Positions 1,252 to 32,964 are shown, counted from the first letter of the stretch. The stretch: DNA of 64,000 bases from Candidatus Peribacteria bacterium RIFCSPHIGHO2_01_FULL_51_35 (GCA_001787535.1 MFXP01000016.1:1-64000), one strand, 5' to 3'. Notes: generated by a model from the letters alone, not told the origin. Made by a program: numbers and translations.

Positions 1252-1262
1252 AGACAGGCATC

Positions 1263-2837: not shown

Positions 2838-2932
2838 GGCCCGAACTTTAGCATGAGCTGAAGATCGGGCCAAGAACTTTCGAGTGCGTGATCGAAGAAA
2901 ATGTTGTGGTGTACCATTGTACACCCATCAAT

Positions 2933-7825: not shown

Positions 7826-8595
7826 GTAAAAATACGATCATCATAGGCGATATTTTCCAACTCGGAGAACACCGCCTTGCGTGCGGCGATTGCCGCGATA
7901 CTGAGCTGATCAAAAAGCTGCTCGGAAAAGACCGCATAGAACTTATTCTCACAGATCCGCCTTACGCGATTGCTTACGTCGAGGGTAAGCGTGGATTCTT
8001 GGGAGGACAACATCATGAAGTGATCGCCAACGATCACGAACAGAGCAACGAGGAGTATCACGCATTTACGAAGGACTGGCTTGCTGCCGCCCTGCCGAAC
8101 ATGGCGAAGAAAAACAGCATCTACATCTTCAACAGCGACAAAATGATTTTTCCGCTCCGATCTGGAATGGAGGCCGCAGGCTGCAAGTTCGCCCAGATGC
8201 TCATCTGGCTCAAGACCCACGCAGTCATGGGCCGACTGGATTACCTTCCACAGCACGAAATCCTCCTCTACGGATGGTACGGAACACACGCATTCCGGAA
8301 GTCCAAAGACAAAAGCATCCTGATTTATCCAAAGCCGAGTAAGAGTGTCCTGCATCCGACGATGAAGCCCGTGGGACTTCTGCGGAGACTCATTCTGAAT
8401 AGTTCCAAGATTGGTGAGCTTGTTTACGATCCCTTCGGAGGTTCAGGTTCGACCATGATCGCAGCACAGGACACCAAGCGCCGATGCGCGATGATTGAAA
8501 TGGATGCTAAGTACTGCCGCGTAATCATCGACCGCTTCGAGAAACATACGGGCGTGAAAGCCCTTCCTCTTTCCAAATCTACGCATGTCCGATGA
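7822..8595 (+). CDS. DNA methyltransferase, beta class
   Basis: 257 residues. Motif IV is DPPY at 45-48 and motif I is DPFGGSGST near residue 205, giving the beta-class order. It is paralogous to the methylase part of the preceding gene: the lead-in GDIFQLGEHRLACGD parallels GDLYQLGPHYLLCGD there. It lacks the ParB domain. Translation is coupled upstream (4-nt overlap), and it overlaps the TerS-like gene by 11 nt downstream. Expected product is N6-methyladenine or N4-methylcytosine in phage or plasmid DNA. Methylase confidence is high; site specificity unknown. Confidence 0.9.
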   Translation: MSKNTIIIGDIFQLGEHRLACGDCRDTELIKKLLGKDRIELILTDPPYAIAYVEGKRGFLGGQHHEVIANDHEQSNEEYHAFTKDWLAAALPNMAKKNSIYIFNSDKMIFPLRSGMEAAGCKFAQMLIWLKTHAVMGRLDYLPQHEILLYGWYGTHAFRKSKDKSILIYPKPSKSVLHPTMKPVGLLRRLILNSSKIGELVYDPFGGSGSTMIAAQDTKRRCAMIEMDAKYCRVIIDRFEKHTGVKALPLSKSTHVR

Positions 8596-9055
8596 CGCAC
8601 TGACAACAACGGCGGAGCGCACGAAGCGTGATAAAGCTGCGCTCGTTGAGCAGTTGAGGAAGACTCCAGTGATCCAGATCGCCTGTGAGAAAACGGGAGT
8701 CAGCCGCATGACCTATTACCGATGGCGTGAAGATGACGAATTCGCTACTGCTGCTGACAATGCGCTTGCGGACGGCAAGTCGCTTGTTAACGATCTCGCA
8801 GAGTCGCAGCTTCTCTCCGCGTTGCGTGAAGGCGAGGCATGGAGCGTCCAGTACTGGCTGCGCCATCATCATCTCGACTATTCCAACAAACTCGAAATAA
8901 CGGCCAAGGCCGCATCGGACAAGTTAACGCCTGAGCAGCAAGAGCAGCTCGACCGTGCACTTGCCCTCGCAGGAGTTTTGCCCGTTATCACGCCGGAAGA
9001 ACCCGGCACGAATCTTGTACCTCCTCCCCCCTCTGACAATGGAACATCACAATGA
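8585..9055 (+). CDS. Phage terminase small subunit-like protein
   Basis: 156 residues. The N-terminal half carries a helix-turn-helix (VIQIACEKTGVSRMTYYRWR, residues ~30-49) of the kind used by terminase small subunits to bind phage DNA. The C-terminus is acidic and proline-rich. It overlaps the preceding methylase by 11 nt and the large terminase subunit by 17 nt. Position immediately before TerL is the main support for the name; sequence alone only shows a small HTH protein. Confidence 0.65.
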   Translation: MSDDALTTTAERTKRDKAALVEQLRKTPVIQIACEKTGVSRMTYYRWREDDEFATAADNALADGKSLVNDLAESQLLSALREGEAWSVQYWLRHHHLDYSNKLEITAKAASDKLTPEQQEQLDRALALAGVLPVITPEEPGTNLVPPPPSDNGTSQ

Positions 9056-10514
9056 ACTTGCAGCGCTTTTTCGGGATGCGAAAACGCGCAGGCCGCTCGT
9101 CCGGGCATCTCATCAATATTTCTTTCTCGCGTACTTCGGCCACTACATGCAGTGTCCTGCAGCGCCGTTCCATCAGGAACTTTTCACGCTCACACAATCC
9201 CTGCCGCCGCTCTCGGTCATCCTCGCGTTCCGGGGATCGGCGAAGTCGACGATCATGACCCTTTCACTTCCGATCTGGTCAGTCGTCGGTGTCCCACAGA
9301 AGAAATTTATTCTGATCATCGCACGGACGCAGGAACAGGCACGGCAATTCATGCGGAACATTCGTGAAGAACTGGAGCGCAATGACCTTCTGCGAAGCGA
9401 CCTTGGGCCGTTCCGCATGGAAGAGGATGAATGGCGTAACCTTGTCCTCGTCATTCCCAAATACGGAGCCAAAATTATGGCGGTCTCGGTAGAGCAGAGC
9501 GTACGCGGACTCCGGCACGGACCGCACCGTCCCGACCTTATCGTGTGCGACGATATGGAAGACATGCAGTCGGTAAAAACAAAAGAAGGACGCGATTCGG
9601 TGTATGACTTTCTCAAACGCGATCTTCTGCCCGCAGGTAGTGCCATAACGCAGACCGTCATCGTAGGGAACATGCTCCATGATGACTGCGTGCTGATGCG
9701 TCTCGTCCGCGAAATTGACAGCGGCAAGCTGCAAGGCGTGTACCGGACGTATCCTCTGATCGACGATGCAGGAAATTGCTTGTGGCCTGGTAGATTCCCT
9801 ACAAAAGACCACATTGAGGCTGAGAAGCGTCGCATCGGGAATGAATTGGTCTGGTTTCAGGAATATTTGCTCAAGATCGTTTCTTCGGCCATTCGTGTTG
9901 TGCGAAAAGAATGGATACGCATGTATGACGAACTGCCGTCACAGGAACCCGTTGCTGTTGCGGTCGCAATTGATCTGGCCTTCTCCGAAAAGAGCAGTGC
10001 AGACTACACGGCCATGGTCATCGGCAAAGCCTACTGGATTAACGATCAATTACGCATCTACATCCTCCCACATCCGTTCCACGCTCGCGTGACACCATTG
10101 GAGGCGTTGCAAGCCGCAAGAACTGGTGCTCGTGCGAATAGGGCGGGTGGCGATGAGGCGACGTTGATCGTGGAGAACGTCCATCAAGAACTTTTCATCA
10201 GTCTGCTTCAGGAAAATGGTCTCTATGTGAAAGAATTTCGCCCGCTTCAAGACAAGCGGACACGACTGATGCAGGTAACGCCGTTCCTTGAGGCGGGGCA
10301 GGTATTCTTCCCGAGAACGGGCTGCGAGGATCTCATCAATGAACTTCTCAACTTTGGTATGGAGCGGCACGACGACTTGGCAGACGCATTCGCAATGCTC
10401 CTAACACACTTCATCGATGAATATGCGCATGAGCCGCAGAGCACATACTTAATTCGCGGTGGACCCACTACGGGCGACTACAGCAGGCGAAAATGGCTGT
10501 CTTTGTTTCACTGA
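9039..10514 (+). CDS. Phage terminase large subunit
   Basis: 491 residues from ATG 9039 (the frame opens upstream to 8955, inside terS). The ATPase half has Walker A FRGSAKST (residues 64-71) and Walker B DLIVCDDMED (166-175). The C-terminal half has an RNase H-like nuclease signature: AIDLAFS with D312, D322 in ADYTAMV, and the late HDDLADAF. The enzyme packages phage DNA by translocation and cutting. No portal, protease or capsid gene follows; a minus-strand nuclease gene comes next. The block is therefore a phage remnant or a borrowed module rather than a complete prophage. Confidence 0.88.
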   Translation: MEHHNELAALFRDAKTRRPLVRASHQYFFLAYFGHYMQCPAAPFHQELFTLTQSLPPLSVILAFRGSAKSTIMTLSLPIWSVVGVPQKKFILIIARTQEQARQFMRNIREELERNDLLRSDLGPFRMEEDEWRNLVLVIPKYGAKIMAVSVEQSVRGLRHGPHRPDLIVCDDMEDMQSVKTKEGRDSVYDFLKRDLLPAGSAITQTVIVGNMLHDDCVLMRLVREIDSGKLQGVYRTYPLIDDAGNCLWPGRFPTKDHIEAEKRRIGNELVWFQEYLLKIVSSAIRVVRKEWIRMYDELPSQEPVAVAVAIDLAFSEKSSADYTAMVIGKAYWINDQLRIYILPHPFHARVTPLEALQAARTGARANRAGGDEATLIVENVHQELFISLLQENGLYVKEFRPLQDKRTRLMQVTPFLEAGQVFFPRTGCEDLINELLNFGMERHDDLADAFAMLLTHFIDEYAHEPQSTYLIRGGPTTGDYSRRKWLSLFH

Positions 10515-13691: not shown

Positions 13692-16592
13692 ATGCCTATG
13701 CCCAACCCACGAACAGGTCCCGGCGATGAACCAATCAAACAGGATTCCCATGAGAATCCACTTTCTAGGGGTCTAGAGCAAGAGGGGGAAGGCGCAGAAC
13801 TCATTGACTCTGCTCGGGGAAAACTTTCTGCCCGTGCAAAAGAAGCAATTGAATTACCTCCCAATCGCACTGTTCTCGATGTGCCCATTGAGTTTTGCTC
13901 GGACGGCAAGAAGATAGAAACACAAAACCGAGGGGGCACATATATCGTCCGAGTGAACGCCATGCGTTTCCGTAGCCGTGAAGAAGCTGAACGCGCTGGT
14001 GTAGTTCAAGCAGCATATTTGCGTTCGATGCGTGATCATTTGCAAGCTGAAACAGGAAAAGCATTTGAGGCTTTACAGTCTTTCAGTTCAGCCGCGCACA
14101 GCGCTTTGCGGTTGAAAGGAGTAAGGAGTCTCGGTGAGTGGGAAAAAGGAGAGGCAGCTGCACTTACAAGATCCTCTCAAACACCTCTCACGCTTGCGCA
14201 AATTTTTGATCGGAGTATTGAGCACTACATCCTGACAGGCGAAATGCCACCGGATATTCCAAACGAAGTACGAAACGCATTAGAGAAGATTCCGGGAAGA
14301 CAAGGAAAGAGTGCTATTGATTTCATCGCACAGGAAGGCCGATCGCTCAGGAGCAGCGCGAAGCTGTACGAGGAGAATGTCGCACCTTTACGGGATGATC
14401 TCAAAGAGGAAGATGGCGAGAAACGAATGACTGAACGCGATGATTATGTACCTCCCAATTTTGAAGGAGAACAAGAACCTCTTGATCCCGAGAGCGTGCG
14501 CTGGAGAGTCGAACCATTCGTAGGTGGTTACTATCGCCAGCAACTTTATCGTTACGATCCATCGGCCCAAAGAATTGTCGCAGAGCCGACGGAGAAAAAA
14601 GAATTCCGGCTCACGAATCCTCCCGAGAACATCGACGAGTTGCAACTCTATACTTTTCACGGAGTGTACGTACCCGGCGAAGAGAATCGTATTCCGTTTC
14701 CGGAAAAGGGATTGCCGCTTCCTGATTCCTTGAACTCGAAGGAAACATTCATGCTCATGAAAAGTTCTGCAGGAATTTTCTCCCTTGAAGAGAGGCGGCA
14801 GGGAGAAGTTGCAGAACCCATGCGCTATTCCTTCCAATTTGTGATCACTCGTACAAGCGATAATCATATTAATGACGAGCCAACAGAAGCAGACCTCGTA
14901 ACCATTGATGGTCCACTGGATGTCACTGCAGAGGAAATGCTATCGGGCTTGAAACAAAATACTTTTCTGAGCAAAGCAGACCGTGGACGTTCTGTTGTCT
15001 TCAGCACCCGAAAGCAATTCGTCTATCCGAAGGACGAGCAGATGGCAGAAATGAATGAGCGATATCGAGTAGCTGGACTGAAGCTACATCCCGAAATGGC
15101 TGACTTAAAGCTCGCAGATTGCCATTGGAGCAATATTCGAGCATCCGATCTCGGACGTAGACTCGATGTCCCGATGCGCACGCCGAGCGGATTCTTTGTC
15201 ACGCCACATCCCGATGTGGAGTTCGCTCCCATTGGTGGTATCGGACACGCATGGAGCGAGCGATGGGACGAAACTTCGCAGCAGTGGATTCGCATGGATG
15301 CGACTCCGCCAAAGCAAGATGATGATAAAGATGAGGACGAGGAGAAGAGTAATGAACCAGCATCTTCCATTGCAGGTGACAGGAAAATCGAAACGGGTGT
15401 CAATGATGCAGAGAATGAAGTTGAAGAGAGTGGTGCCTTTGATATGACCAAGGAGGAGGTCACAAAGATTTTAGAATTGATCGCTCAATCAACACCGTCA
15501 GAACAAGATGTCACTGAAGCTCTTTTCCGCGAACGCACAAATGTCTCTATGTCCGACTGGAAAAAAGTGGAAGCATTTGTAGATAAAACAAATGAGACGC
15601 CGGTTCCTCCCGAGTTGCAGATTCCGGAAACACCCGACATGCTGCGCTATTTCCGAGATCGTATTACTGCGCCCAAAGGAACCCTTGAACGAGAATGGCA
15701 GAAATTGTTTTGTCTCATCTGTACCCATCGCCAGATTAATCGCCGCAAATTCCCGGGTAATGTTCGCCAAAGCGAAAGTACGACGGGGCTTGAGAATCCT
15801 GTTGATGCCTACATCGACATTATGGCCGACGAACCTGATCCGATGGGATTTGGCATTGATACGAGGAGACCGGAGACCATTCTTGATGTGAAGGCGTTTG
15901 AGGAAGACTCGCTCGTCGATCTTACTTCTTCCATGAACGACACGGATAATTATGGGAACGTAATGCGTGTCGAGCAAAAGAAAGTTATCCTTTCACTGCT
16001 GTATCACCTCATGGAACTGAACGCAGAATTGAATGATTCTCGTGTTCGGTCAAACCTACGCACGCCGCTCAAAATCCGTTCCGCGATTTACTCCATTCAC
16101 GGACAGGGTAAGAAGAATCAGGGTCATTTCGCGCAACTCAAAGCTGCAGATGAAGATATCACGGAAGCTGTACTCGTGCATTTGGCGCGGGAATTGGATC
16201 AAACGACACCGGGTGCTGGCGATTTCCTCAGCGCCCTGCGTGCATACCGAGAAGGAATTGCTCCGGAAACTTTGGAAAGAATTCGTTCGGGTGATCTCGT
16301 GAAAATGCTTACAGTCTATTCTGATGGCAATCACTGGTGTGCAAACTGCGGCTCCGAATCTCACAATGCGATGCTTCACACAGAGCGCCTTCGCGCAGCA
16401 CAGGAAGAGATTCGCCACATCCGCGATCTTGGTATCATTGTGCAGGGAATCGGATTTACAGAAAAAGCCGAGGCAATCAAAGTTATGTGCCATGATCCGA
16501 AAGAACCCGATGGCGCTGTGGTCGTTAATAACGTCTCCCGAGCCATTTCAGCCCGCCATACAATGCTAACGAAACATTTACAAAAACTATGA
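13692..16592 (+). CDS. Transglutaminase-like plus VWA domain protein, MoxR partner
   Basis: 966 residues, no signal peptide or membrane segment, so cytosolic. Residues ~465-540 hold a complete transglutaminase-like triad: C477 (ADCHW), H519 (IGHAWSERW) and D536 (RMDATPP). An acidic linker of about 20 residues follows. The C-terminus is a VWA domain with a MIDAS-like D743-L-T-S-S747 and a second motif VYSDG (D878). The AAA+ MoxR-type gene begins 29 nt downstream. TGL, VWA and MoxR genes are classic operon partners, but TGL and VWA in one chain is less usual. I infer a chaperone-like or conflict-system module controlled by the ATPase. Residues 1-450 are unrecognised. Confidence 0.75.
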   Translation: MPMPNPRTGPGDEPIKQDSHENPLSRGLEQEGEGAELIDSARGKLSARAKEAIELPPNRTVLDVPIEFCSDGKKIETQNRGGTYIVRVNAMRFRSREEAERAGVVQAAYLRSMRDHLQAETGKAFEALQSFSSAAHSALRLKGVRSLGEWEKGEAAALTRSSQTPLTLAQIFDRSIEHYILTGEMPPDIPNEVRNALEKIPGRQGKSAIDFIAQEGRSLRSSAKLYEENVAPLRDDLKEEDGEKRMTERDDYVPPNFEGEQEPLDPESVRWRVEPFVGGYYRQQLYRYDPSAQRIVAEPTEKKEFRLTNPPENIDELQLYTFHGVYVPGEENRIPFPEKGLPLPDSLNSKETFMLMKSSAGIFSLEERRQGEVAEPMRYSFQFVITRTSDNHINDEPTEADLVTIDGPLDVTAEEMLSGLKQNTFLSKADRGRSVVFSTRKQFVYPKDEQMAEMNERYRVAGLKLHPEMADLKLADCHWSNIRASDLGRRLDVPMRTPSGFFVTPHPDVEFAPIGGIGHAWSERWDETSQQWIRMDATPPKQDDDKDEDEEKSNEPASSIAGDRKIETGVNDAENEVEESGAFDMTKEEVTKILELIAQSTPSEQDVTEALFRERTNVSMSDWKKVEAFVDKTNETPVPPELQIPETPDMLRYFRDRITAPKGTLEREWQKLFCLICTHRQINRRKFPGNVRQSESTTGLENPVDAYIDIMADEPDPMGFGIDTRRPETILDVKAFEEDSLVDLTSSMNDTDNYGNVMRVEQKKVILSLLYHLMELNAELNDSRVRSNLRTPLKIRSAIYSIHGQGKKNQGHFAQLKAADEDITEAVLVHLARELDQTTPGAGDFLSALRAYREGIAPETLERIRSGDLVKMLTVYSDGNHWCANCGSESHNAMLHTERLRAAQEEIRHIRDLGIIVQGIGFTEKAEAIKVMCHDPKEPDGAVVVNNVSRAISARHTMLTKHLQKL

Positions 16593-16605
16593 AATAATGT
16601 ATAAT
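16577..16605 (+). promoter_or_regulatory. Internal promoter of AAA+ target gene
   Basis: TTTACA (16577-16582), 17 nt, TATAAT (16600-16605), then 16 nt to ATG 16622. Near-consensus promoter overlapping the 3' end of the TGL-VWA gene, with a leader of about 10 nt. Confidence 0.65.
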
Positions 16606-16621
16606 TATAAGAAAGCCATAT

Positions 16622-19432
16622 ATGCCAGCTACTAAGCCCACCGGCCTCCCCCAAGATCCCTCCGAAAGAGGCGGCCTCTCTGAAGGGAAGAAAGATTGTA
16701 CTTCTCGTAACATCAATCTTGTGCGAGAAGCAATGCGTCTCGGATTCGACTTGTCTGCATTGCGTCTTGAGCAGTTTGCTCCGGAAGGGCAGGGACACGT
16801 TGAAGCCAATGGATCGCCCCTTAAGACAGAAGAAATTAGAGAACGCGCTTTGGAAACACTTCATCTTCTCGATGAATTTAATCGCGTGAAACTGGAGCCG
16901 AGCAAAGCTTCTCAAGGCGAAGCAAATGACGTTCTCGATGGTGTTGAGAGTCTCGACGATTTTATTTCAGCTCTCGATACCAACAAAGAGAAAGTTAAAT
17001 CCAAGCCAGAGGAGCCACAAGCGAAATTCAGGAGAGAAGAACTGGCTGGAAAAATTAAGGAACTTCTATCTGAACCACAGGTGTACCAGTTCCTGCAACA
17101 GTCACTCACGAAGGAAGCTGAACGTTTCACAGCCGTCCAGCCTCTTCTTTCAAGACTCCACAAGTTGCGCCAAGTACAGGCCATTGCCTTTGAGCGCATC
17201 CATACACTCTCACTTGGGAGTAAGCGCAAGCACGGCAAAATTGTAGGATCGGTGCAAACCACTATCGAAAAACTTTCGCGTCTAAATAAAGAAGCGGAAG
17301 AGGAGGAACAGCGTTTGGAGGAAGAGGCCAGTCCTCTTGAAAAGGGATGGATCGCCTCACAGCGTCTGCTCGAATACAAGCAGCAACTAAAAGAGGATCG
17401 CTTCGTGATGACACCGAGCCGCCGCGTGATCCTCGATGAGATGATTGCAAAGCTCGGCAGCAAGGGGCGTGTGCTTCTACTCGGTTCCAATGGAACGGGA
17501 AAGACGGAACTTGGAGCAAAGGCATTGAAACTCGTTTCAAATGGATACCACCTCGTTCCTTGGCAAGAAGGCACAACCGGACAGGATATCTTCGGACGCC
17601 AAGAGATCCGTCGTCAGAACGGTCATGTGGAGAGCGGCCTTCGTCCCGGCCCTATGACGCGCGCAATAGAAGCAAAGGAGGGGGAACCAGCTGGTGTGCT
17701 GCACGATGAATTGAACCTTGGAAGCCTCCGCACAATTTATCTCTTAAAGAAGCTTTGGAATAGTCGTCCCGGGCAAGAGGTGGATGTTCCGGTGCTCGAT
17801 GAGAAGCGCACATTGCCTCTGAACTATGCTGAAGTCTATACGGCAAACCCGAAGGACGAGCGCACGAGTAACCGTGAAGAATTCGATGCGGGCATTACCC
17901 GCGTGCTTGGTGGCATGAATGTGCCGTTCCTGAAGCAGGATGAACAAGAACAGATTATTCTCGCCAAGCTCATTGATGAGAATGGAGTCCTGCATCTTTC
18001 AAAAAGTGAAGCACAGACTCTCCGTGAACTGGTGGCAAGCGCCGTTATGACGCAGCAATGCTTCGACCGTGCATTCGCTGATTTGGGAGATGAAGCACTC
18101 AGTGAAATCAAAAGCATGACAGGTATTTCCGACTTACGGCTCACGAAGAAGTTTCTTGATCCGGGACGGCTCATGGAAATGTTCGATACTTTTGAGCAGA
18201 AGCGAGCAGAAGGCATGAGCGTTGCTGATTATCTTTCTGCTGAATTGAAAAAGTTTCTCGCGGAATTTGAGGTGGAAGAGGAACGAAATATCGCGCTAGC
18301 GATTTTGAAATTGAAGGGAGTCGTCGCGGTGGATAGCACAGCGACAGAACCGCATGTTCAGGTTGCGAGGAAACCCGGTGAAAAATCATTTATTCTCCCG
18401 TCGGAACTCGCATTTATCCTCTCTTGTGAGAACGAACTTGATGATTCTGATGTTGAATTTGATCAGGAAGAAGCCAGTGTTGAGAACGTTATTGCAACCG
18501 ATGGAGCTGAATTATTGGAATTACTTAATCAAGGATCACCGGATGCAATCAGAGCGAAGACCCGCAAGGGTGTTTCCGAAGCTCTCAGTCCATCGCAGAA
18601 AGCAATCGACCGTGCTCGCCAAATCATGCTTGAGAAGTGTGGCGAGGGACACTTCTACGGACTTGCTGAACTTGAAAAGACATTCCCGGGCATGAAGATT
18701 AACCTCAAAGAGGTTCCTGCCCTGCCTCCTGAAAGTGAAATAGAAAGGCATGCGGCTCTCGGCCACACGCTGCGACTTCGCATCAGCAAGGCGCCTGATA
18801 ATTCAAAGCTGACAATGCAGAAAATGCATCAGCTGCTCCAAGATGAATTCAATAAGAGCAAGGATGGCAAAGTGTTCTACAGCGTTGAAGATGAATGGAA
18901 GCTGAAGTCGACATTCTTCACGGACGAAGTCCCCGAAGTTGCTTGGGCGTTTACGTCTGATGAAGTTCTTCCGAACTCCACGGGGAAAAATCATCTGCAA
19001 CAGACACAGTTGCTTGCCGAGTACGCCAAAACGACACTCTTCAAGGGTGGCCAGTTACCGCAGGAATACCGCGAGGCTTTACAGGAATTGACTGCCCAGC
19101 AGGCTGAAATCCAGCAGCTTATGAGTAGCGATTGGAAAGCTGCCGCAGACCGATTGGCAAACTTGAAGATCAATAAGCTCATGCGAGCGAGTCCTGTTGA
19201 GACTCTCAGCGATCTTCTCGTCACGTTCCGCAATAGCGATCCGAAGAAGCGCAAGCGCCTACTCGAGAAGAAATTGACATGGACGGCTACGCAAAGCTCG
19301 GGCGGTAGCCTCGTCGACGTTGGCGTCTTCGGTCCGGACGGCGTGTACGTCGGCGGCTGGGGCCCGCGCGGCTCGAGTGGCGGTCTCGGGGTTGTCCTCG
19401 CTCGGAAGTTCCCTGGAACCTTGCGCACTTGA
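16622..19432 (+). CDS. MoxR-type AAA+ ATPase, DGR target protein 1
   Basis: 936 residues. N-terminal ~260 residues are charged helices. The AAA+ core has Walker A GSNGTGKT (288-295) and Walker B AGVLHDELN (D362), with VYTANPKDE as the sensor 1 region, in MoxR/dynein-like order. A ~240-residue C-terminal module is shared with the next gene (RLRISKAP, then KMHQLLQ, then LANLKINKL). It ends in a C-type-lectin-like variable segment at residues 892-930 (DGVYVGGW, LGVVLARKF) encoded by VR1. Six residues follow the VR. The ATPase likely partners the TGL-VWA protein, while the tail recognises a ligand that the DGR diversifies. Confidence 0.88.
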   Translation: MPATKPTGLPQDPSERGGLSEGKKDCTSRNINLVREAMRLGFDLSALRLEQFAPEGQGHVEANGSPLKTEEIRERALETLHLLDEFNRVKLEPSKASQGEANDVLDGVESLDDFISALDTNKEKVKSKPEEPQAKFRREELAGKIKELLSEPQVYQFLQQSLTKEAERFTAVQPLLSRLHKLRQVQAIAFERIHTLSLGSKRKHGKIVGSVQTTIEKLSRLNKEAEEEEQRLEEEASPLEKGWIASQRLLEYKQQLKEDRFVMTPSRRVILDEMIAKLGSKGRVLLLGSNGTGKTELGAKALKLVSNGYHLVPWQEGTTGQDIFGRQEIRRQNGHVESGLRPGPMTRAIEAKEGEPAGVLHDELNLGSLRTIYLLKKLWNSRPGQEVDVPVLDEKRTLPLNYAEVYTANPKDERTSNREEFDAGITRVLGGMNVPFLKQDEQEQIILAKLIDENGVLHLSKSEAQTLRELVASAVMTQQCFDRAFADLGDEALSEIKSMTGISDLRLTKKFLDPGRLMEMFDTFEQKRAEGMSVADYLSAELKKFLAEFEVEEERNIALAILKLKGVVAVDSTATEPHVQVARKPGEKSFILPSELAFILSCENELDDSDVEFDQEEASVENVIATDGAELLELLNQGSPDAIRAKTRKGVSEALSPSQKAIDRARQIMLEKCGEGHFYGLAELEKTFPGMKINLKEVPALPPESEIERHAALGHTLRLRISKAPDNSKLTMQKMHQLLQDEFNKSKDGKVFYSVEDEWKLKSTFFTDEVPEVAWAFTSDEVLPNSTGKNHLQQTQLLAEYAKTTLFKGGQLPQEYREALQELTAQQAEIQQLMSSDWKAAADRLANLKINKLMRASPVETLSDLLVTFRNSDPKKRKRLLEKKLTWTATQSSGGSLVDVGVFGPDGVYVGGWGPRGSSGGLGVVLARKFPGTLRT
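19295..19411 (+). repeat. DGR variable repeat 1 (VR1)
   Basis: 117 bp, same length and frame as the template repeat at 20914-21030. By my count 20 positions differ at template adenines (A to G, C or T). One differs at a non-adenine: G19408 where TR has C21027. The last 28 bp contain a 22-nt A-free tract (19384-19405), which serves as the unmutated initiation region. A short hairpin GTTCC-CT-GGAAC (19408-19419) spans the 3' boundary. Confidence 0.95.
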
Positions 19433-19513
19433 ATGCTTGAACTTCCTTGAATCCTTTTTCCTTGAAGCATCCGCTACTGACGAATTTTCACCTCCTGTTG
19501 TCTCTCACACTCA

Positions 19514-20536
19514 ATGCCACGCGAAGCACGCCATACGTTCATCCGGCAACTTCGAGAAACTACAGCCTACAAAGGCGACGTTACTGTACGTAGTGTTGTG
19601 GATGAGACAATCGGAAGAATCGCTGGGTTGCCTGAACAAGGCACAGGTGAGCTACTTCGACAGGAGATTTGCACTCTCCGAGATCTGGTCATGCCACTCT
19701 TGCAAGGAACGAAAGCACCTAAGCGAAGAGAGAGAAAAGGAGAAGCAATCAACCCGAAGGAAGCAGAGACGATTATTGGTGCCGATCATTTTTTCGGAGC
19801 AGAGGCAGTCCGCAAAGCTTTCCCCGGTGTCCCTCTTAAACCGGAACAGATTCCAGCGATACCATTCTCCCGAGAAGACCTGCAGCGTGCCAAGGAACTC
19901 GGTGACAGCTTGCGTCTGCGGGTGAATAAGGCACCCGGTAACGGTAAGCTGAATATGAAAAGGATGCAGGAACTGCTGCAGCCGACCTTCGATCAAAAGA
20001 ATGAAGGAAAGGTTCTTTACGATACTGACTGGTACGAGAGCGAAGATTTCTTTATGGAAGAGCCTGAACTCTGCTGGGTTCTGACATCGGATGGGATCAT
20101 CCCCGATTCCGAAGACAAAGATTACCTTCAGCAGACTGAGCATATTGCAGAGTATCTGCGCGACACGGTGTATCAGGGCAGGAAGATTCCGCAGCAATAC
20201 GCAGACGCAATCAAGGAAGTGAATTCCCAAAAAGATGAAATCCGTCGCCTTATCGACAATGGAGATTGGCAGGAAGCTGCAGAGAAGCTTGCGAATCTCA
20301 AACTCAATAAGATTACTCGCCGCATCCCTGTTGAAGTGCTCTATGACATGCTTGTGACCTTCCAGAACGGCGATAAGCGTCATTTGGAGGATTTCTATGA
20401 CTGGACACCTGTTCGTAGCTCGGACGGTGGCCTCGTCGACGTTGGCCGCTTCGCTCCGGACGGCGTGGGCGTCAACGACTGGCGCCCGAACGACTCGGAT
20501 GGCGCTCTCGGGGTTGTCCTCGCTCGGAAGTTCTGA
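19514..20536 (+). CDS. DGR target protein 2, paralogue lacking the ATPase
   Basis: 340 residues. After ~100 unique residues it carries the same C-terminal module as the AAA+ target (RLRVNKAPGNGKLNMKRMQ, then LANLKLNKI, then VLYDMLVTFQNGD). It ends exactly with the variable segment, residues 302-340 (DGVGVNDWRPN, LGVVLARKF), and the stop follows VR2 immediately. No AAA+ domain is present, so it may act as a free diversified receptor or a competitor subunit for the ATPase. It lies 81 nt after target 1 on the same strand. No Shine-Dalgarno site precedes ATG 19514. Confidence 0.85.
   Translation: MPREARHTFIRQLRETTAYKGDVTVRSVVDETIGRIAGLPEQGTGELLRQEICTLRDLVMPLLQGTKAPKRRERKGEAINPKEAETIIGADHFFGAEAVRKAFPGVPLKPEQIPAIPFSREDLQRAKELGDSLRLRVNKAPGNGKLNMKRMQELLQPTFDQKNEGKVLYDTDWYESEDFFMEEPELCWVLTSDGIIPDSEDKDYLQQTEHIAEYLRDTVYQGRKIPQQYADAIKEVNSQKDEIRRLIDNGDWQEAAEKLANLKLNKITRRIPVEVLYDMLVTFQNGDKRHLEDFYDWTPVRSSDGGLVDVGRFAPDGVGVNDWRPNDSDGALGVVLARKF
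20417..20533 (+). repeat. DGR variable repeat 2 (VR2)
   Basis: 117 bp aligned without gaps to TR and VR1. By my count 15 differences from TR at adenines, plus the same C-to-G change near the 3' end (G20530). A TGA stop follows directly after its last codon. Confidence 0.95.
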
Positions 20537-20913
20537 GCCTTGAGGCCTTGAAGCTTGATACTTTTGATTTCTTGAGCCTTCGGCTACAAATTTTTTGTAT
20601 TGGCAATATTGCTTTTAAGCAATGTAAAGTGTTTGTGGTGTCCGCTAATGCAGTCGGGATTACGGTTCCGGCTCGCTGTCACCCCAGATTCGTTACCACC
20701 GATGCTCTGCTAGGTGGAACTCGCCGGAATACCGTGTCTCTACGGAGCACGGTAGTGCGCGAGCGAAGACTGCGAAGGAACTTCTTGCTCATTCTCAGAC
20801 TCGGTATCGTCTCCCAAGACGGTTGCGGGCGAATCAAATTCAGGGGAGAGAGGCTATAGGCCGCAAGGCAGTAAACCTCGATCTCCAGTGTCTCGGACGG
20901 GAATGGGCAACAT
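20537..20913 (+). other. Structured leader upstream of the DGR template repeat
   Basis: 377 nt with no convincing gene. It contains several hairpins: TACAAA/TTTGTA (20585-20599), ATTGCTT-TT-AAGCAAT (20608-20623), TACCGTG/CACGGTA (20730-20754) and CGTCT-CCCA-AGACG just before 20830. By analogy with other DGRs the template RNA extends beyond TR, so this may be its 5' portion. That role is inferred from position and folding potential only. Confidence 0.45.
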
Positions 20914-21030
20914 AGCTCGGACGGTAACCTCGTCAACGTTGGCAACTTCGATCCGGACGGCGTGAACGTCAACAACTGGAACCCGAACAACTCGAATGAC
21001 GATCTCGGGGTTGTCCTCGCTCGGAACTTC
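20914..21030 (+). repeat. DGR template repeat (TR)
   Basis: 117 bp and adenine-rich at codon positions 1-2, mostly as AAC. Read in the VR frame it encodes DGVNVNNWNPNNSNDD with LGVVLARNF at the end. It differs from both VRs only at A residues, except C21027 where both VRs have G. That mismatch lies where the IMH*/IMH difference sits in characterised DGRs. It is intergenic, upstream of the reverse transcriptase on the same strand. Confidence 0.95.
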
Positions 21031-21041
21031 CTTCTCGGTGA

Positions 21042-21074
21042 TCCAAGGGATTCTTGTGTGAAGAGTCCCTTGGA
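21042..21074 (+). other. Hairpin between TR and avd
   Basis: TCCAAGGGA (21042-21050) and TCCCTTGGA (21066-21074) form a perfect 9-bp stem 11 nt after the TR and directly abutting the avd stop codon. No T-run follows on either strand, so it is more likely part of the template RNA than a terminator. Confidence 0.6.
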
Positions 21075-21425
21075 TTATCCCTCGCGTGTCGATTTGATCC
21101 ACCCGCCAAGCATTCGTCCGATTTCATCAATCATCTCCTCGAGAAAACCATATTTCTTGAGATCCATGATTTTGAGATCCTTCGCAAGGCGGATAAAGAC
21201 GCGCAGAACATTGAGTTTTACGCTCACCTGCTCCAGTGGCTGTAGCTTTTGAGGTTTGCGTAGCTGGCTTGCAAGCAGGATCCCTTCGAGGATCTCCAGC
21301 ACAAGATTCTCGCAGCGCTGCCAGAGCGCGTAACGATCGTGCTTGGGTACGGTTCCTCTCAGCTCGTAGAGCTTCTTGGTTAGTTCGTACGCCTTCTTGA
21401 ATATCGGAATATCTAATTCTTCCAT
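21075..21425 (-). CDS. avd: DGR accessory variability determinant (Avd-like four-helix bundle)
   Basis: 116 residues from ATG 21425 (MEELDIPIFKKAYELTKKLY); the longer frame to 21611 runs into the RT gene and is unlikely. Predicted all-helical with a positive surface, like Avd/bAvd and the related 23S-intervening-sequence four-helix proteins. Avd binds the template RNA and the reverse transcriptase. Unusually it is encoded opposite to TR, the targets and RT, between TR and RT; its start is only 13 nt from the RT start. The RNA downstream of TR is therefore antisense to avd. Confidence 0.85.
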   Translation of the reverse strand: MEELDIPIFKKAYELTKKLYELRGTVPKHDRYALWQRCENLVLEILEGILLASQLRKPQKLQPLEQVSVKLNVLRVFIRLAKDLKIMDLKKYGFLEEMIDEIGRMLGGWIKSTREG

Positions 21426-21438
21426 AACGACATAAAGG

Positions 21439-22488
21439 ATGAAAGTACACAAGAATATCTTCGAGCAGATCATTACGCCAGAGAATTTGTTCCAAGCTTG
21501 GGATGAATTCCGCAGAGGCAAGGGATCTCGCAAAGATGTGCAGGCATTTGAGTGGGGGCTTGAGCAAAATATCTTGTCTCTCTGTCGAGATCTTCGTAAT
21601 CGAACGTACAAACATGGAGAATATTCGGCATTTTCGATCTGTGATCCGAAGCAACGCCGGATTCATAAGGCAACAGTGCGTGACCGCATTCTTCACCATG
21701 CAATTTTTAAGGTATTGAATCCTATTTTCGAGCCGACATTCATCGCGCACTCTTTTTCATGCCGTGAAGGAAAGGGAACGCACAAGGCGGTCGATGCTCT
21801 GGAAGTTTGGCTTCGGAAAGTCAGTCGCAATAATCGAGCGCCTTGTTTTGCTCTTAAGTGCGACATTCAGCAGTTCTTTGCGTCGGTCGATCATGAAATT
21901 CTACTATCTATTCTGAGCAAGAAGATAAAAGACCCCGATGCTATGCAGCTGCTTATTGAAGTCGTCGAGAGCTTTTGCACTCCCGGGCAAGAAGATGAGC
22001 GTCCTAAGGGCATCCCCATCGGCAATCTGACTTCACAGCTATTTGCGAATGTGTACCTTAATGAATTTGATCAATTTATGAAGCACGGAATGCACGTCCG
22101 ACACTATGTTCGATACACGGATGATTTTATCATTGTAGATTCTGACAAATCAGCACTGGAGAAATTAATTCCAGTAATGCAGGAATTCCTCAGTGAATCC
22201 ATGAAGCTCAAACTCCATCCTCGCAAAATCACTCTTCGTAAATTCGGTCAGGGCATCGATTTTCTCGGATACGTCGTCTTGCCACACCATCGAATGCTTC
22301 GTACTCGGACGAAGCAACGTATGTTCCGGAAACTGAAGGTACGTGTAGTGAGTTTCAAGGCAGGATCGGGCAGCGAGTCATCCGTGGAATGCTCTCTGCA
22401 ATCATATCTCGGTGTCTTATCCCATGCGGATACCAATCGACTTAGTGAAGAATTGAAGAATCGTTGCTGGTTTTGGATGAGTGAATAG
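21439..22488 (+). CDS. Reverse transcriptase of the diversity-generating retroelement
   Basis: 349 residues, typical of DGR RTs. Catalytic aspartates are D142 (ALKCDIQQFF) and the YTDD box (226-229, RYTDDFIIV). Motif 4 is GIPIGNLTSQ, with the SQ that distinguishes DGR RTs from the SP of retroviral and group II RTs. No maturase or endonuclease domain follows. It copies the TR RNA with adenine-directed errors, and the cDNA replaces VR sequence. AAAGG abuts the start codon but is too close to be an ordinary Shine-Dalgarno site. Confidence 0.95.
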   Translation: MKVHKNIFEQIITPENLFQAWDEFRRGKGSRKDVQAFEWGLEQNILSLCRDLRNRTYKHGEYSAFSICDPKQRRIHKATVRDRILHHAIFKVLNPIFEPTFIAHSFSCREGKGTHKAVDALEVWLRKVSRNNRAPCFALKCDIQQFFASVDHEILLSILSKKIKDPDAMQLLIEVVESFCTPGQEDERPKGIPIGNLTSQLFANVYLNEFDQFMKHGMHVRHYVRYTDDFIIVDSDKSALEKLIPVMQEFLSESMKLKLHPRKITLRKFGQGIDFLGYVVLPHHRMLRTRTKQRMFRKLKVRVVSFKAGSGSESSVECSLQSYLGVLSHADTNRLSEELKNRCWFWMSE

Positions 22489-22647
22489 GAGCTGGACTTC
22501 ATCGGGGTTCCGGCGCAACAGGACTGGATAGGCAAGACGGTCGCAGGCATTGATTGAGGCATGCAATCAGCAACCCTCACAGCATCGGCAAGGAAAATCG
22601 GAAGAACGGCACCACCGGATAACGAACATCGGGTGGAGCCGACGATC

Positions 22648-23910
22648 ATGCCTATCCGCTACTGCCTTTACGCTCGGAAATCGTCCGAGGACGACGAGCG
22701 ACAGGCGATGTCTATCGACTCGCAGGTAAAAGAGATGCTCGCTCTCGCCAAGAGAGATGGAATGGAGATCGCGGAAATTCGACGTGAAAGCCACTCGGCA
22801 AAAGCGTCGGGACATCGCCCCGTCTACAACACGATCATTCAAGATGTAGGGAAAGGACTTTTTACAGGCATCCTCACATGGGCACCGGATCGTCTGAGCA
22901 GAAATGCAGGCGACTTAGGATCGCTTGTCGATCTTATGGATCAAGGACTGCTTCGTGAAATCCGTTGCCATTCACAAAAGTTCACGAATAACCCGAACGA
23001 GAAATTTTTGCTCATGATTCTTTGTTCGCAGGCAAAGCTCGAAAATGATAATCGAGGTATCAATGTGAAGCGCGGACAGAAAGCCAGAGCCGAACAGGGT
23101 TATCGCCCCTGCCTTCCATCGCTTGGATATCTCACAGAGCGGAGAGCTGGTGAAGTGCGTAGCCGAATTATCATTGATCCTGTGCGAGCGCCGTTCGTCC
23201 GACAAATGTTCGAGAAGGTCGCGCAAGATCGCATGAGCGGCCGCGACGTATATCGATGGGTGCAACAATCGGAGTTCCGGACACGAGCTGGCAAGAATCT
23301 GACTCTCAGCATGATCTATAAGGTTCTCCATAACCCTTTCTATACAGGAAGGTTCGAGTATCCGGTTGGCAGCGGGAAGTGGTATCGAGGGGATTACGAT
23401 CCAGTCATCAACCAGCAACTCTTCGATGACGTGCAGCGGCATCTCTCAGCTGGACAGGAGCGTGACTGGGGCACAAAGGAATTCGCGTTCACGCGGCTCA
23501 TGACGTGCGGCAATTGCGGGTCGGGCGTAACGGCCGATGAGAAGCGGAAACAAACCAAGAAAGGTCTACAGCGCTACGTATATTACCGATGCACTCACTC
23601 AAGGGATCTCCAATGCAAAGAGCCAGCCTTACGAGAGGAGGAGTTGATTGAACAGCTTATAGAACTTCTGGATCATCTAAATGTGAATGCCTCTGGTGTA
23701 AAAAGGAAAATTGATGATGAATTTGAACGATTTTCAAAATTCGCAACGGATGTTCTGGGTATTTCAGACAAACAGAAGGCTCAGAAGATCAACCAACGAA
23801 AGTATGTGGAATATTTGCTTAAGAATGGAACAGTCGTAGAAAAAAGAGAGTTGCTGGGATGCCTGAAGGATCGAATTGTGCTGAAGGCCGGCAAGATCGA
23901 ACTCGTCTAA
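22648..23910 (+). CDS. Large serine recombinase (site-specific integrase/resolvase)
   Basis: 420 residues from ATG 22648 (an in-frame ATG at 22561 is possible). N-terminal resolvase domain has YARKSSEDD carrying the catalytic serine, then TWAPDRLSRN. The recombinase domain follows (SLGYLTERRAGEVRSR), then a zinc ribbon (CGNCGSG, then YRCTHS, C) and a C-terminal coiled-coil region. This is the layout of large serine integrases of phages and mobile elements. It lies 160 nt downstream of the DGR reverse transcriptase and 40 nt upstream of the CBASS operon, so it may mobilise either or both. Attachment sites were not identified. Confidence 0.9.
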   Translation: MPIRYCLYARKSSEDDERQAMSIDSQVKEMLALAKRDGMEIAEIRRESHSAKASGHRPVYNTIIQDVGKGLFTGILTWAPDRLSRNAGDLGSLVDLMDQGLLREIRCHSQKFTNNPNEKFLLMILCSQAKLENDNRGINVKRGQKARAEQGYRPCLPSLGYLTERRAGEVRSRIIIDPVRAPFVRQMFEKVAQDRMSGRDVYRWVQQSEFRTRAGKNLTLSMIYKVLHNPFYTGRFEYPVGSGKWYRGDYDPVINQQLFDDVQRHLSAGQERDWGTKEFAFTRLMTCGNCGSGVTADEKRKQTKKGLQRYVYYRCTHSRDLQCKEPALREEELIEQLIELLDHLNVNASGVKRKIDDEFERFSKFATDVLGISDKQKAQKINQRKYVEYLLKNGTVVEKRELLGCLKDRIVLKAGKIELV

Positions 23911-23951
23911 GCCACTGACAGGAGATCAAAGAGTTGGTATTTTGGTCTCCT

Positions 23952-25064
23952 ATGGCGCGAAGATACAAAGAAGATGCGGTAAGAAGGCTCCAGATTCTCT
24001 CTGGTAATCAGTGTGCATTCCCTACGTGCAGGCAGCCCTTGTTGGAAGCCGACGACGCCGATACCTATGTCGGTCAAATCTGCCACATCAAAGCGGAAAG
24101 TCCAAAAGGGCCCAGATATGATCCGGAACAAACAGAAGAGGAGCGGAATGGTTTTGAAAATCTGCTCATCATGTGCGGGACGCACCACACTGTCATAGAT
24201 CGAAATGTTAAGAAATACACCGTCGAAGTCCTTGTTAAGATCAAGCACGATCATGAAGTGCAATTCCGAGTAGATGATGATGCCAATGAGGGTGTAGTAG
24301 AAAAATTGCTCGAGGCGGTACCCATTGGCATTCGCAGTTTTTCGCGTGGCACAGAGTATATGGATAGCCAGATGCAAGCGTTACTTGATTTGGGCCCGCA
24401 TTTCCACGGGCGCAACATCCGCGAGAGCAAGCTCTGGCACGAGGGTGTCCTGCCAGAGATTGAGAAATTCTTGCATGACGCTACTCAGGCAGACGTGCCT
24501 TATCGTCTCCATCTGGCCGCTCATACCTGTATCGGTTTTGCCGCTGGATATTTCCTTGATTCCAAGGCGGGCAAGAACGTGATACCTGTGCAAAGCACTA
24601 TCCGCGGCAAGCTCGTCTGGGAACCAGATCTGCAGAAGCGACTTCAGGGGCAGCTATGCAACCATATGGATCACACCATGACCACATCCGGAGAGGATGT
24701 TGCTCTCGTGCTCAGCATCACCCATGACATTCTGGCACAGGTACAAGAACATGTGAGCTCACATTTACCCTCCGTTGGACGCATTATGGAATGCAAAGCA
24801 CTGCCACTTCCCGGTCCCACTTGCGTTCCGGATGGCACCCATGCGTATCGTATTGCAGAAGAAGTCGCTGCTACTTTCCAAACCAGCCGCTCCGCACAAG
24901 AGCGTAAAGGGACCGTGCACATTTTTGCAGCGGCTCCCATCAGCTTCATCTTTTTCCTTGGACAGCTAGGGCGACGCTTCGGGAGGTGCACACTGTATGA
25001 GTATGATTTTGAGAACAATGGGCCATACTTGCCGTCATTGACTCTGCCCCCAAACAAAGGTTAA
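23952..25064 (+). CDS. cap5: CBASS effector Cap5: HNH endonuclease fused to SAVED domain
   Basis: 370 residues from ATG 23952. A TTG at 23934 has an AGGAG 9 nt upstream and is a real alternative, adding six residues. Residues 15-85 are an HNH module (C21AFPTC26, ICHIKAES with H45, N70, H78/H79). Residues ~155-365 are a SAVED sensor (VHIFAAAPISFIFFLGQ, then TLYEYDF). SAVED binds the cyclic oligonucleotide made by the CD-NTase and activates the nuclease to degrade DNA. First gene of the CBASS operon; the next gene begins within 40 nt. Confidence 0.9.
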   Translation: MARRYKEDAVRRLQILSGNQCAFPTCRQPLLEADDADTYVGQICHIKAESPKGPRYDPEQTEEERNGFENLLIMCGTHHTVIDRNVKKYTVEVLVKIKHDHEVQFRVDDDANEGVVEKLLEAVPIGIRSFSRGTEYMDSQMQALLDLGPHFHGRNIRESKLWHEGVLPEIEKFLHDATQADVPYRLHLAAHTCIGFAAGYFLDSKAGKNVIPVQSTIRGKLVWEPDLQKRLQGQLCNHMDHTMTTSGEDVALVLSITHDILAQVQEHVSSHLPSVGRIMECKALPLPGPTCVPDGTHAYRIAEEVAATFQTSRSAQERKGTVHIFAAAPISFIFFLGQLGRRFGRCTLYEYDFENNGPYLPSLTLPPNKG

Positions 25065-25103
25065 TTGCGAAAAACCGCCAATTCTGATAGAACAAGATTC
25101 CCT

Positions 25104-26165
25104 ATGGATCTGCCGACGTACTTCACCGATTTTCTGAAAAATATCCGGCCCGAGCCGGACGATTTGGATGAATTTCGTGCAGCACACAAAGAACTGCGAG
25201 AGAAGCTCGAAGCCGACCTCGGACTCTCCGACATCATCCTCTCCACTTTCCTGCAGGGCAGCTACCGTCGTGCAACGGCCATCCGCCCGAAGCCGGGGAA
25301 AAAGGGTGATGTGGATGTCGTGGTTGTGACCGATATCGACAAAGAACAGAAAACACCGCAGCAGGCCCTCGACACATTCAAGCCCTTTCTGGACAAGCAC
25401 TATAAGGGGAAGTACGTCATACAGGGGCGTTCCATCGGCATCAGTCTGACGAGAGTTGATCTCGATCTTGTGGCAACCTCTGCACCTTCCGAAGTGGAGA
25501 AGAGTGTGTGGAAGAGCATGAGCTTCACCGAGGATCGGACGCTGGAAGATGAGGAATTCGTGGAGAAAATGACGAGAGCGTCTGCTGAATGGAAATTGTC
25601 GCCATTGGAAATCCCGGATCGGGAGGCGAAGTTATGGGTTCCGACGCATCCCCTGAAGCAGATTCAAGCCACGCAGGAGAAGAATGCGCGGTGCAATAAG
25701 CACTTCGTGAATGTCGTGAAGGCGATCAAGTGGTGGAGACGAAAGTTCGTAACGCCAGAGTACCCCAGGAGCTACCCAGTAGAGCATCTGATATGGCACT
25801 GCTGCCCCGATCAAATCAAAACGGTGGCGCAGGGCGTCACGGAAACGCTAGAGACGATCGTACGGGATCATAAGCTCAAACCCTTTCTCCCCGATCACGG
25901 CGTCCCCCAGCACGATGTCTTCAAGCGCATCATCCAAAAAGATTACGATGAGTTCTACAAGCAAGTCGCCGAAGCCGCTGTCCTCGCTCGGAAAGCCCTT
26001 GATGAGCAGGACACGGAAAAAAGCGCGAAGCTCTGGCGAGAGCTGTTCGGTAATGATTTCCCTCCGTATGGAGGCGGAACCGGGGGTGGAAGCAATGGCG
26101 GATCGAAGGGCGGCTACACGCCACGAGATCGTCCGTCGAACGTCGGAGGAGCACGCTTTGGATAG
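25104..26165 (+). CDS. CBASS CD-NTase (cGAS-like cyclic oligonucleotide synthase)
   Basis: 353 residues from ATG 25104; a TTG at 25065, directly after the cap5 stop, is an alternative start. The nucleotidyltransferase signature is complete: LQGSYRRAT (G52-S53), D69-V-D71-VVV, and third aspartate D121 (RVDLDLV). The C-terminus is a flexible glycine-rich tail ending GGARFG. A C-terminal glycine is what Cap2 conjugates in type II CBASS. Sequence resembles clade D CD-NTases, though the clade needs alignment. On phage sensing it would make the cyclic messenger read by the HNH-SAVED protein. Confidence 0.9.
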   Translation: MDLPTYFTDFLKNIRPEPDDLDEFRAAHKELREKLEADLGLSDIILSTFLQGSYRRATAIRPKPGKKGDVDVVVVTDIDKEQKTPQQALDTFKPFLDKHYKGKYVIQGRSIGISLTRVDLDLVATSAPSEVEKSVWKSMSFTEDRTLEDEEFVEKMTRASAEWKLSPLEIPDREAKLWVPTHPLKQIQATQEKNARCNKHFVNVVKAIKWWRRKFVTPEYPRSYPVEHLIWHCCPDQIKTVAQGVTETLETIVRDHKLKPFLPDHGVPQHDVFKRIIQKDYDEFYKQVAEAAVLARKALDEQDTEKSAKLWRELFGNDFPPYGGGTGGGSNGGSKGGYTPRDRPSNVGGARFG

Positions 26166-27974
26166 ATGTCTGAACCACATGAACCTTCAGAGGCATTATT
26201 GGCGGGAAGACGCGCACTGGAGGGCATCAAGGGCGTGACGCTTCTCGAAGATTTCCAATGGATCGAGAAATGCAAGCGATGGTGCCTACGCTGTCGCCTC
26301 AGGATCGATGGCAATGGAACCGCATTCGCCCCGAAGGAGACTGATTGGCATGTCCTGATCGAACCCAGCTACCCGTGGGGATATCTCCGACTCCATCCCT
26401 CAAAGGAAAGAGGACTCACGCACACGTTCCCTCATCAATGGCACAATGCCGAGGGGAAAGAGAACGTACCGTGGCGTGAAGGCTTCCTCTGCCTCGACAC
26501 AGCAGTGTATGCCATCGGACGACACGGCTTCGACGATCAGCCCTACGAACCCGAGACGAGGCTGCTCTGGCACATGCAACGTGCGCTGGAATGGTTGGAA
26601 GCCGCATCGACAGATCAATTGTTGCCTCCCGGAGAGCCATTCGAACTGCCCCAATTTCACTCAGGTGCGTCGGTTGTGATCGGTTTCAACGAGAATGCTG
26701 CATCATTCGAGCAATGGAGGTCGATCCAGAATCAGTGCGGCATTGCGACTCTGAGGCGATGGCAGAAGAACGTCTTCATCGCTCGGTCGTTCCAGAGTAT
26801 CGATGGCACGGAACTTCTCTCGATGCCATGGGGTGAAGAATTCAGCAAGACGGAGGATGAAAAAACCGCTCTATGGATTCGTACCAAATCCGTACCTGTC
26901 TTGCCTCCGTGGCAGGCACCGACAACATGGGGGGAGTTGCAGGAAGCATGCAGGACGCAAGGCATCGATATGTACCAGCTCTTGGAAGCTGCCGCACCAC
27001 ACATAAGAGACGGTAAGGAGCACTTCGCTCTAATCGGCTTTCCCATTCCCGTCACAATGGGCGAAAAGCCCTGTCGCATGTTCTGGCAGGGATTGCTCCT
27101 TCCAGTTCTCACCACATCGAAAACGGCGAATGGCTTCAGACAAATCGAAACATCCTATCGGATCCGCGATCGTGCGCAGACATGGAGAGAATCTGAGAGA
27201 ATACAGTGGTGTGACGCCCACAACTGGAATATGGAAGAAATCAGCACCAGAGGCAGACTGCAGGATGCATTGACCACAAAGCAAGTTCTCCTCATCGGGG
27301 CCGGCGCACTCGGCTCCACGCTCGCAGATATGCTCGTGAGGGGAGGGGTGACGAGGATGACAGTCGTCGATCCCGATCACCTTGAAATGGGGAATCTCGT
27401 GCGTCATACGCTTCATACAAGTGACCTGCGACAGCGGAAGGCTTCGGCTCTCGCGGAAGCCCTAAACCATACATCTCCACATGCATCGGTGACGCCGCTG
27501 GTTATGGAATTTCCACCCGGGACGGACGACGCTATTGCCGCTGTGCAACAGACGGATATCGTGATCGACACGACGGGCAACGATGGTGTCCTGCACCATC
27601 TCGAAGCGTTCCCGTGGGGAAGCCCCAAGCTCTTCGTCTCCATCGCTCTCGGTCTGAAAGGTCAGCGGCTCTACTGCTACGCTGCACATGATGACACATT
27701 CCCAGTAGATGATTTCCGTACACGCATCAACCCGCTGCTGGGCGCGGATATTGAGAAGATGAAACAGGCCGGGGAAAGCCTACCGAGGGAAGGCATCGGG
27801 TGCTGGCATCCTGTATTTCCCGTCAGAGTGGACGATGTGCGCCTGCTGGCAGCAGCAGCGATCAAATTCCTTGAGCCACTTGCGAGTGTCTCTCCGGAGC
27901 AACCGCTCCTCTCGGTATTCGAGCAGACAGTGAAAGACGGACAGTTCACTGGTATTCAACGAATCGCGGCATAG
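26166..27974 (+). CDS. cap2: CBASS Cap2, E2-E1 fusion conjugating enzyme
   Basis: 602 residues; ATG is adjacent to the CD-NTase stop. The N-terminal ~160 residues resemble an E2 fold with catalytic C109 (REGFLCLDT). The C-terminal half is a ThiF/E1 adenylation domain with nucleotide loop G378-A-G-A-L-G383, VVDPDHLEMGN, and the E1 cysteine C546 (GIGCWHP). In type II CBASS, Cap2 attaches the CD-NTase C-terminus to a target, priming the synthase. All catalytic residues I would expect are visible, so the enzyme looks intact. Confidence 0.92.
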   Translation: MSEPHEPSEALLAGRRALEGIKGVTLLEDFQWIEKCKRWCLRCRLRIDGNGTAFAPKETDWHVLIEPSYPWGYLRLHPSKERGLTHTFPHQWHNAEGKENVPWREGFLCLDTAVYAIGRHGFDDQPYEPETRLLWHMQRALEWLEAASTDQLLPPGEPFELPQFHSGASVVIGFNENAASFEQWRSIQNQCGIATLRRWQKNVFIARSFQSIDGTELLSMPWGEEFSKTEDEKTALWIRTKSVPVLPPWQAPTTWGELQEACRTQGIDMYQLLEAAAPHIRDGKEHFALIGFPIPVTMGEKPCRMFWQGLLLPVLTTSKTANGFRQIETSYRIRDRAQTWRESERIQWCDAHNWNMEEISTRGRLQDALTTKQVLLIGAGALGSTLADMLVRGGVTRMTVVDPDHLEMGNLVRHTLHTSDLRQRKASALAEALNHTSPHASVTPLVMEFPPGTDDAIAAVQQTDIVIDTTGNDGVLHHLEAFPWGSPKLFVSIALGLKGQRLYCYAAHDDTFPVDDFRTRINPLLGADIEKMKQAGESLPREGIGCWHPVFPVRVDDVRLLAAAAIKFLEPLASVSPEQPLLSVFEQTVKDGQFTGIQRIAA

Positions 27975-27989
27975 GCGTAGAATGCCAGA

Positions 27990-32957: not shown

Positions 32958-32964
32958 AGATTCA

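Follow-up and report, generated by a model that had tools for sequence, protein, structure and literature searches.

The first 64,000 nucleotides of contig MFXP01000016.1 of Candidatus Peribacteria bacterium RIFCSPHIGHO2_01_FULL_51_35 (GCA_001787535.1), hereafter the window, carry a complete diversity-generating retroelement (DGR) with a reverse transcriptase (RT), the accessory protein Avd, a template repeat (TR), two variable repeats (VRs) and the sequence difference at the initiation of mutagenic homing site (IMH/IMH*). The VRs form the ends of an AAA_5 ATPase and of a stand-alone copy of its C-terminal sensor domain. Upstream of the ATPase gene lies a partner that unites a transglutaminase-like (TGL) domain and a VWA domain in a single chain. 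The set of ATPase, TGL-VWA protein and DGR recurs in at least 10 families. This suggests an adaptive intracellular sensor, probably one used in defence. With moderate confidence, we favour a cytosolic sensor in which the diversified ATPase tip signals to a TGL-VWA effector, likely directed against phages or mobile elements.

Template, variable repeats and DGR proteins

The components of the locus are as follows.

13692-16592, plus strand: TGL-VWA fusion, 966 aa; TGL triad C477/H519/D536; metal ion-dependent adhesion site (MIDAS) D743-x-T-x-S747 ... D878
16622-19432, plus strand: AAA_5 ATPase, 936 aa, DGR target 1 (Pfam AAA_5, 6.6e-9); C-terminal sensor domain with VR1
19295-19411, plus strand: VR1, final part of the ATPase gene (residue 892 onwards)
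19514-20536, plus strand: stand-alone sensor, 340 aa, DGR target 2, homologous to the ATPase C-terminus
20417-20533, plus strand: VR2, end of the stand-alone sensor gene, last base at its stop codon
20914-21030, plus strand: TR, 16 adenine-bearing codons, 9 of them AAC
21037-21079, plus strand: predicted 19-bp hairpin, just 3' of TR, overlapping the avd stop codon
21075-21425, minus strand: avd, DGR accessory protein, 116 aa (NCBIfam NF033474 and Pfam bAvd)
21439-22488, plus strand: DGR RT, 349 aa (Pfam RVT_1, 1.4e-22; IGNLTSQ and YTDD motifs)

VR1, VR2 and TR belong to three direct repeats of one 132-nt family (19280-19411, 20402-20533 and 20899-21030), and a search of the genome returned them as the sole good copies, together with one RT. 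Mismatches were counted over a TR core of 115 nt (20914-21028) that holds 28 adenines and 87 other positions. VR1 departs from TR at 20 of the 28 adenines and at one of the 87 other positions (P=5e-15), while the corresponding counts for VR2 are 15/28 and 1/87 (P=2e-10). The sole non-adenine mismatch is identical in both VRs, a C>G change near the 3' end that is also common to all orthologous loci compared, and is the IMH/IMH* signature. Because the mismatches are biased to adenines, a chance origin of the repeats is dismissed. Plain duplication of VR1 and VR2 is likewise ruled out, as both depart from a separate TR solely at adenines and at the IMH base. Translated in the VR frame, TR reads SSDGNLVNVGNFDPDGVNVNNWNPNNSNDDLGVVLARN.

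Avd scores 94.6 bits against NCBIfam DivGenRetAVD (NF033474; cut-off 80) and 2.9e-20 against Pfam bAvd, which places it over the curated threshold of both models. The closest solved relative of the RT is PDB 8ub7 (2.5e-48), which we take to be the RT of the BPP-1 DGR. The original prediction had described two 117-bp VRs, one 117-bp TR, Avd and a DGR-type RT, all of which are present where it placed them. The minus-strand position of avd is a detail that it did not give: avd and the RT gene are divergent, with start codons 13 bp apart. This opposite orientation was seen in nearly all DGRs of the lineage examined (L043-L045, L047-L052, L055, L119-L123, L127, L134, L137 and L142), and a TR-RT transcript would run antisense to avd. 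The hairpin after TR, which may be a structure of the TR RNA or a bidirectional terminator, has counterparts of 16-19 bp a few bases past TR in four relatives (L038, L039, L043 and L044); the stem sequence varies between loci and the pairing is kept. No hairpin was found after TR in L045. The BPP-1 DGR shares with the window RT, Avd, the TR/VR arrangement, the IMH/IMH* difference and an inverted repeat near one of the repeats. However, the hairpin described in BPP-1 follows VR (PMC3240598) and that of the window follows TR; furthermore, Avd of the window is divergent from RT and the target is not a phage tail protein.

Comparison with orthologous loci bears on whether the element has been in use. 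The gene order of the window occurs twice in genome G043, where the TGL-VWA proteins are 81% and 79% identical to that of the window, and once more in G029, at a locus cut by the contig end. Orthologous VRs served by the same kind of TR differ at 11-17 of the 28 adenine columns and at only 0-4 of the 87 others; the 300 nt upstream of them are 76-84% identical. G043 holds two complete DGR loci (L037/L038 and L039), with VRs fitting the TR of the other locus. Both VRs of its locus C35 fit the TR of locus C43, with IMH as the sole non-adenine mismatch, as against 10-11 non-adenine mismatches to their own TR, and VR2 of C43 fits the C35 TR rather than its own. Since VRs match the TR of the other locus, the simplest reading is that the G043 templates probably act in trans between loci. 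Other DGRs are reported to act in trans as well (PMC10907252). Part of the cross-match could stem from gene conversion or an assembly error, an account to which the presence of VRs of both types on a single contig (C43) runs counter. The pattern suggests that both G043 TRs have been used. Taken as sequence evidence, the orthologue comparison and the probable trans templating imply recent use of the DGR.

The diversified ATPase and its TGL-VWA partner

The ATPase has intact Walker A (GSNGTGKT at 288), Walker B (HDE, ~361-363) and sensor-1 (N409) motifs and was also aligned with 10 relatives. It is the larger of the two targets and its variable region is its C-terminus, as had been proposed. The accompanying label 'MoxR-type' holds only broadly, in that the protein scores above the AAA_5 cut-off and falls in the helix-2-insert clade; none of the MoxR-specific models matched the window protein, and bpMoxR gave a weak match in relative L134 only. 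The 340-aa stand-alone sensor is ~42% identical to the C-terminal region of ~300 residues of the ATPase; sequence searches of this sensor against PDB and Pfam returned nothing credible. The tails of three relatives (L137, L140 and L142) show a GG...GG...VRLV pattern reminiscent of C-type lectin (CLec) domains. A hydrophobic segment of membrane-span length is absent from the ATPase, the stand-alone sensor and the TGL-VWA protein, and the sensor is thus probably cytosolic.

The partner is recognised by its motifs. Across 13 divergent aligned proteins, and also in a 5-protein alignment, the C477/H519/D536 triad is invariant and the MIDAS is kept. The window protein has no significant match in Pfam, neither to Transglut_core nor to VWA; the Transglut_core cut-off is passed by relatives L119, L121, L123, L125, L127 and L143. 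Its VWA region aligns with the Pfam-recognised VWA domain of L045 (E=0.001), MIDAS on MIDAS. The conserved motif and this profile alignment point to a VWA protein with a MIDAS beside the ATPase, and the Cys-His-Asp triad argues for membership of the TGL superfamily. The conservation in 13 proteins bears out the earlier view that the neighbour combines a complete TGL triad with a VWA MIDAS. The single-chain TGL-VWA partner, then singled out as the least familiar part, is also what remains new.

A variant arrangement is found at L045:12754-17350, where a DGR and an AAA-VR ATPase stand beside a CobT-like VWA protein that matches CobT_C and has a HEGGH zincin-like motif and no TGL. As this VWA partner carries HEGGH in place of TGL, the peptidase-like module seems exchangeable.

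Distribution and genomic setting

Because sequence similarity guided the collection of loci from genome samples, the following numbers are counts rather than frequencies. The sensor profile has matches in 15 of the 353 genomes from the class, the TGL-VWA profile in 20 of the 380 that were sampled across the phylum. In further classes the latter was found in 6-13% of genomes; some of these matches are partial, and the last two samples share nearly all their genomes. We read 33 TGL-VWA loci in context, from Patescibacteria-like genomes of ~1 Mb. The conserved DGR linkage that the original prediction had named as its own check is seen at 12 of the 33, from 11 genomes and 10 families: the window, both G043 loci, L119-L123, L134, L135, L137 and L147 have a TR that fits the VR of the adjacent ATPase by the adenine rule, G043 C35 being counted via the TR of the other G043 locus. 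DGR parts are present in four further loci (L127, L131, L140 and L142), and in another eight the contig breaks off within the locus or the picture is unclear (L124, L126, L129, L132, L133, L136, L138 and L139). A DGR is absent from open context at the remaining nine (L094, L041, L125, L130, L141 and L143-L146).

Among these loci, L094:5538-11078 encodes a TGL-VWA protein and an ATPase that bears this sensor domain and lacks a DGR, leaving a tip without a template; an RT was not found in the genome of L094. L136:7382-13689 has a broken ATPase gene with VR-like tails, neither RT nor TR was detected, and it is probably a decaying locus.

The genome from which the window derives is 1.20 Mb long and 99% complete. 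It lacks uL30, which is present in 13 of 14 control genomes, and is Patescibacteria-like. Downstream of the DGR the following genes were identified.

22561-23910, plus strand: serine recombinase adjoining the DGR (Pfam Resolvase/Recombinase)
23934-28481, plus strand: type II cyclic-oligonucleotide-based antiphage signalling system (CBASS) with HNH-SAVED effector, CD-NTase, E1-E2 (Cap2) and JAB (Cap3) (Pfam, PADLOC)
28523-35907, minus strand: type III restriction-modification (R-M) genes and a DrmD-like SNF2 helicase (PADLOC)

The CBASS operon is complete and lies directly downstream of the DGR and the recombinase. Similar serine recombinases occur upstream of both G043 loci, which also have type III R-M genes as neighbours. 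In the window, CBASS and type III R-M give the locus a defence-island setting, in line with the original prediction. Towards the start of the window, an N6/N4 methylase and, next to it, a TdeIII-type restriction endonuclease (Pfam 7e-53) form a probable further R-M system (445-2924, minus strand). A ParB-like methyltransferase, a second methyltransferase and a terminase-like gene (6521-10514, plus strand) recur at L037 and L039.

A candidate adaptive sensor and its alternatives

For the cytosolic sensor the following sequence of events can be proposed. The RT-Avd complex would reverse-transcribe the TR RNA and write it into both VRs, with up to ~10^15 tip variants as the result, so that the ligand-binding tips of the ATPase and of the stand-alone sensor copy would both be diversified. 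On binding a ligand inside the cell, most likely one made by a phage or mobile element, a variant tip would alter the ATPase ring. The ATPase would then remodel its partner via the VWA MIDAS, releasing or activating the fused TGL thiol hydrolase, which might cleave or cross-link proteins and so limit infection. The stand-alone sensor could act as a decoy or co-receptor, or supply a second specificity. The sequence establishes the DGR, both of its targets and the conserved partner; we infer invader sensing, transduction by the ATPase, the TGL effector and the role in defence; transduction by an ATPase from a DGR-diversified sensor has been proposed for analogous systems (PMC10907252).

Several observations weigh against this interpretation. 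AlphaFold models have a mean predicted local distance difference test (pLDDT) score of 51 for the stand-alone sensor, with confidence <35 within the VR, and of 32 for the TGL-VWA protein; models this poor therefore lend no support to a CLec fold of the tip or to a contact between ATPase and partner. In some genomes the TGL-VWA/AAA pair lacks diversification, and at least one relative, L094, has housekeeping genes around it and not a defence island. Moreover, no VMAP model matched any of the locus proteins in Pfam or PADLOC.

DGR-diversified MoxR-vWA conflict systems have been published (Kaur et al. 2020, PMC7159879; Dore et al. 2024, PMC10907252). With these, and with ATPase-CLec targets known from the candidate phyla radiation (CPR), the novelty of the locus is lower than first stated. 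VMAP/MoxR-vWA systems, for which antigen sensing has been proposed, likewise have an AAA+ ATPase, a VWA protein, a peptidase-like domain and a DGR-diversified sensor at a single locus (PMC7159879; PMC10907252). However, their VR is on a vWA-CLec protein or a separate target beside the ATPase, whereas in the window it is on the ATPase itself; their peptidase is part of the VMAP protein, whereas TGL is here fused to VWA; and their hosts are mainly multicellular, whereas the window genome has 1.2 Mb. TGL peptidases are rare VMAP N-termini (PMC7159879). As no VMAP protein was recognised, we do not file the locus as a VMAP system; it may still work like one. Two-target loci of clade 5A (PMC10907252) similarly combine a long target with a short stand-alone sensor beside an ATPase, but in the window it is the ATPase that forms the long target.

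The diversified proteins might instead serve interaction with host cells or surfaces, as in attachment or symbiosis, which we regard as unlikely. Such a role has been proposed for CPR DGRs (PMC10907252), and cellular DGR targets elsewhere are mostly membrane proteins (PMC8144416). In contrast, the ATPase, the stand-alone sensor and the TGL-VWA protein lack an evident signal peptide or membrane segment, the AAA ring requires cytosolic ATP, and CBASS and R-M genes adjoin the locus. We consider it equally improbable that a mobile element or prophage remnant carries the set as cargo and benefits from it, in place of the cell, through superinfection exclusion or competition with other elements. The window locus and both G043 loci are indeed flanked by ParB-like methyltransferases, a terminase-like ATPase and serine recombinases, but neither capsid nor tail genes were recognised alongside, and searches of viral contigs and of phage records returned no relatives at the sensitivity applied.

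AAA_5-VWA pairs such as CobS-CobT and NorQ-NorD act as chaperones in remodelling or metal insertion. The locus could be a pair of this kind in which the DGR tunes the choice of cellular client, a reading suggested by the CobT_C match of the L045 partner and by the DGR-free TGL-VWA/AAA pairs; yet ~10^15 tip variants make little sense for one fixed client, VWA is fused to a TGL or zincin-like domain and the setting is a defence island, and we give it little credence. That the locus is a relic whose TR/VR pattern records the past activity of a DGR no longer working, as the decayed or split appearance of L136, L142 and L054 might suggest, is very improbable, because all reading frames in the window are intact and the agreement of TR and VRs at every non-adenine core position bar the IMH base would soon fade without recent homing.

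CPR DGR targets have been described as mostly without recognisable domains and of unknown use (PMC8144416). Fusions of AAA ATPase and CLec are the commonest among them according to the summary of Paul et al. 2017 in PMC10907252. They share a CPR-like genome with the window locus, and that summary gives no TGL-VWA partner or conflict context, whereas here the partner is conserved across families. Within the literature examined, to which Paul et al. 2017 contributes via PMC10907252 only, the conserved single-chain TGL-VWA partner of a DGR-diversified ATPase is new. With this conserved enzyme-like partner and the defence-island setting at the best-examined loci, the purpose of the commonest CPR DGR target becomes testable in terms of an ATPase, a catalytic triad and a sensor tip. 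If the sensor reading is true, somatic-style diversification of receptors would extend to reduced bacteria with small genomes, beyond the multicellular bacteria for which its evolution has been argued. More tentatively, and with considerable doubt, hypermutable AAA+ receptors, free copies of the receptor domain, TGL/VWA effectors and templates shared in trans might together constitute adaptive intracellular immunity throughout the Patescibacteria, which would, if true, be a previously unrecognised phylum-wide immune system.

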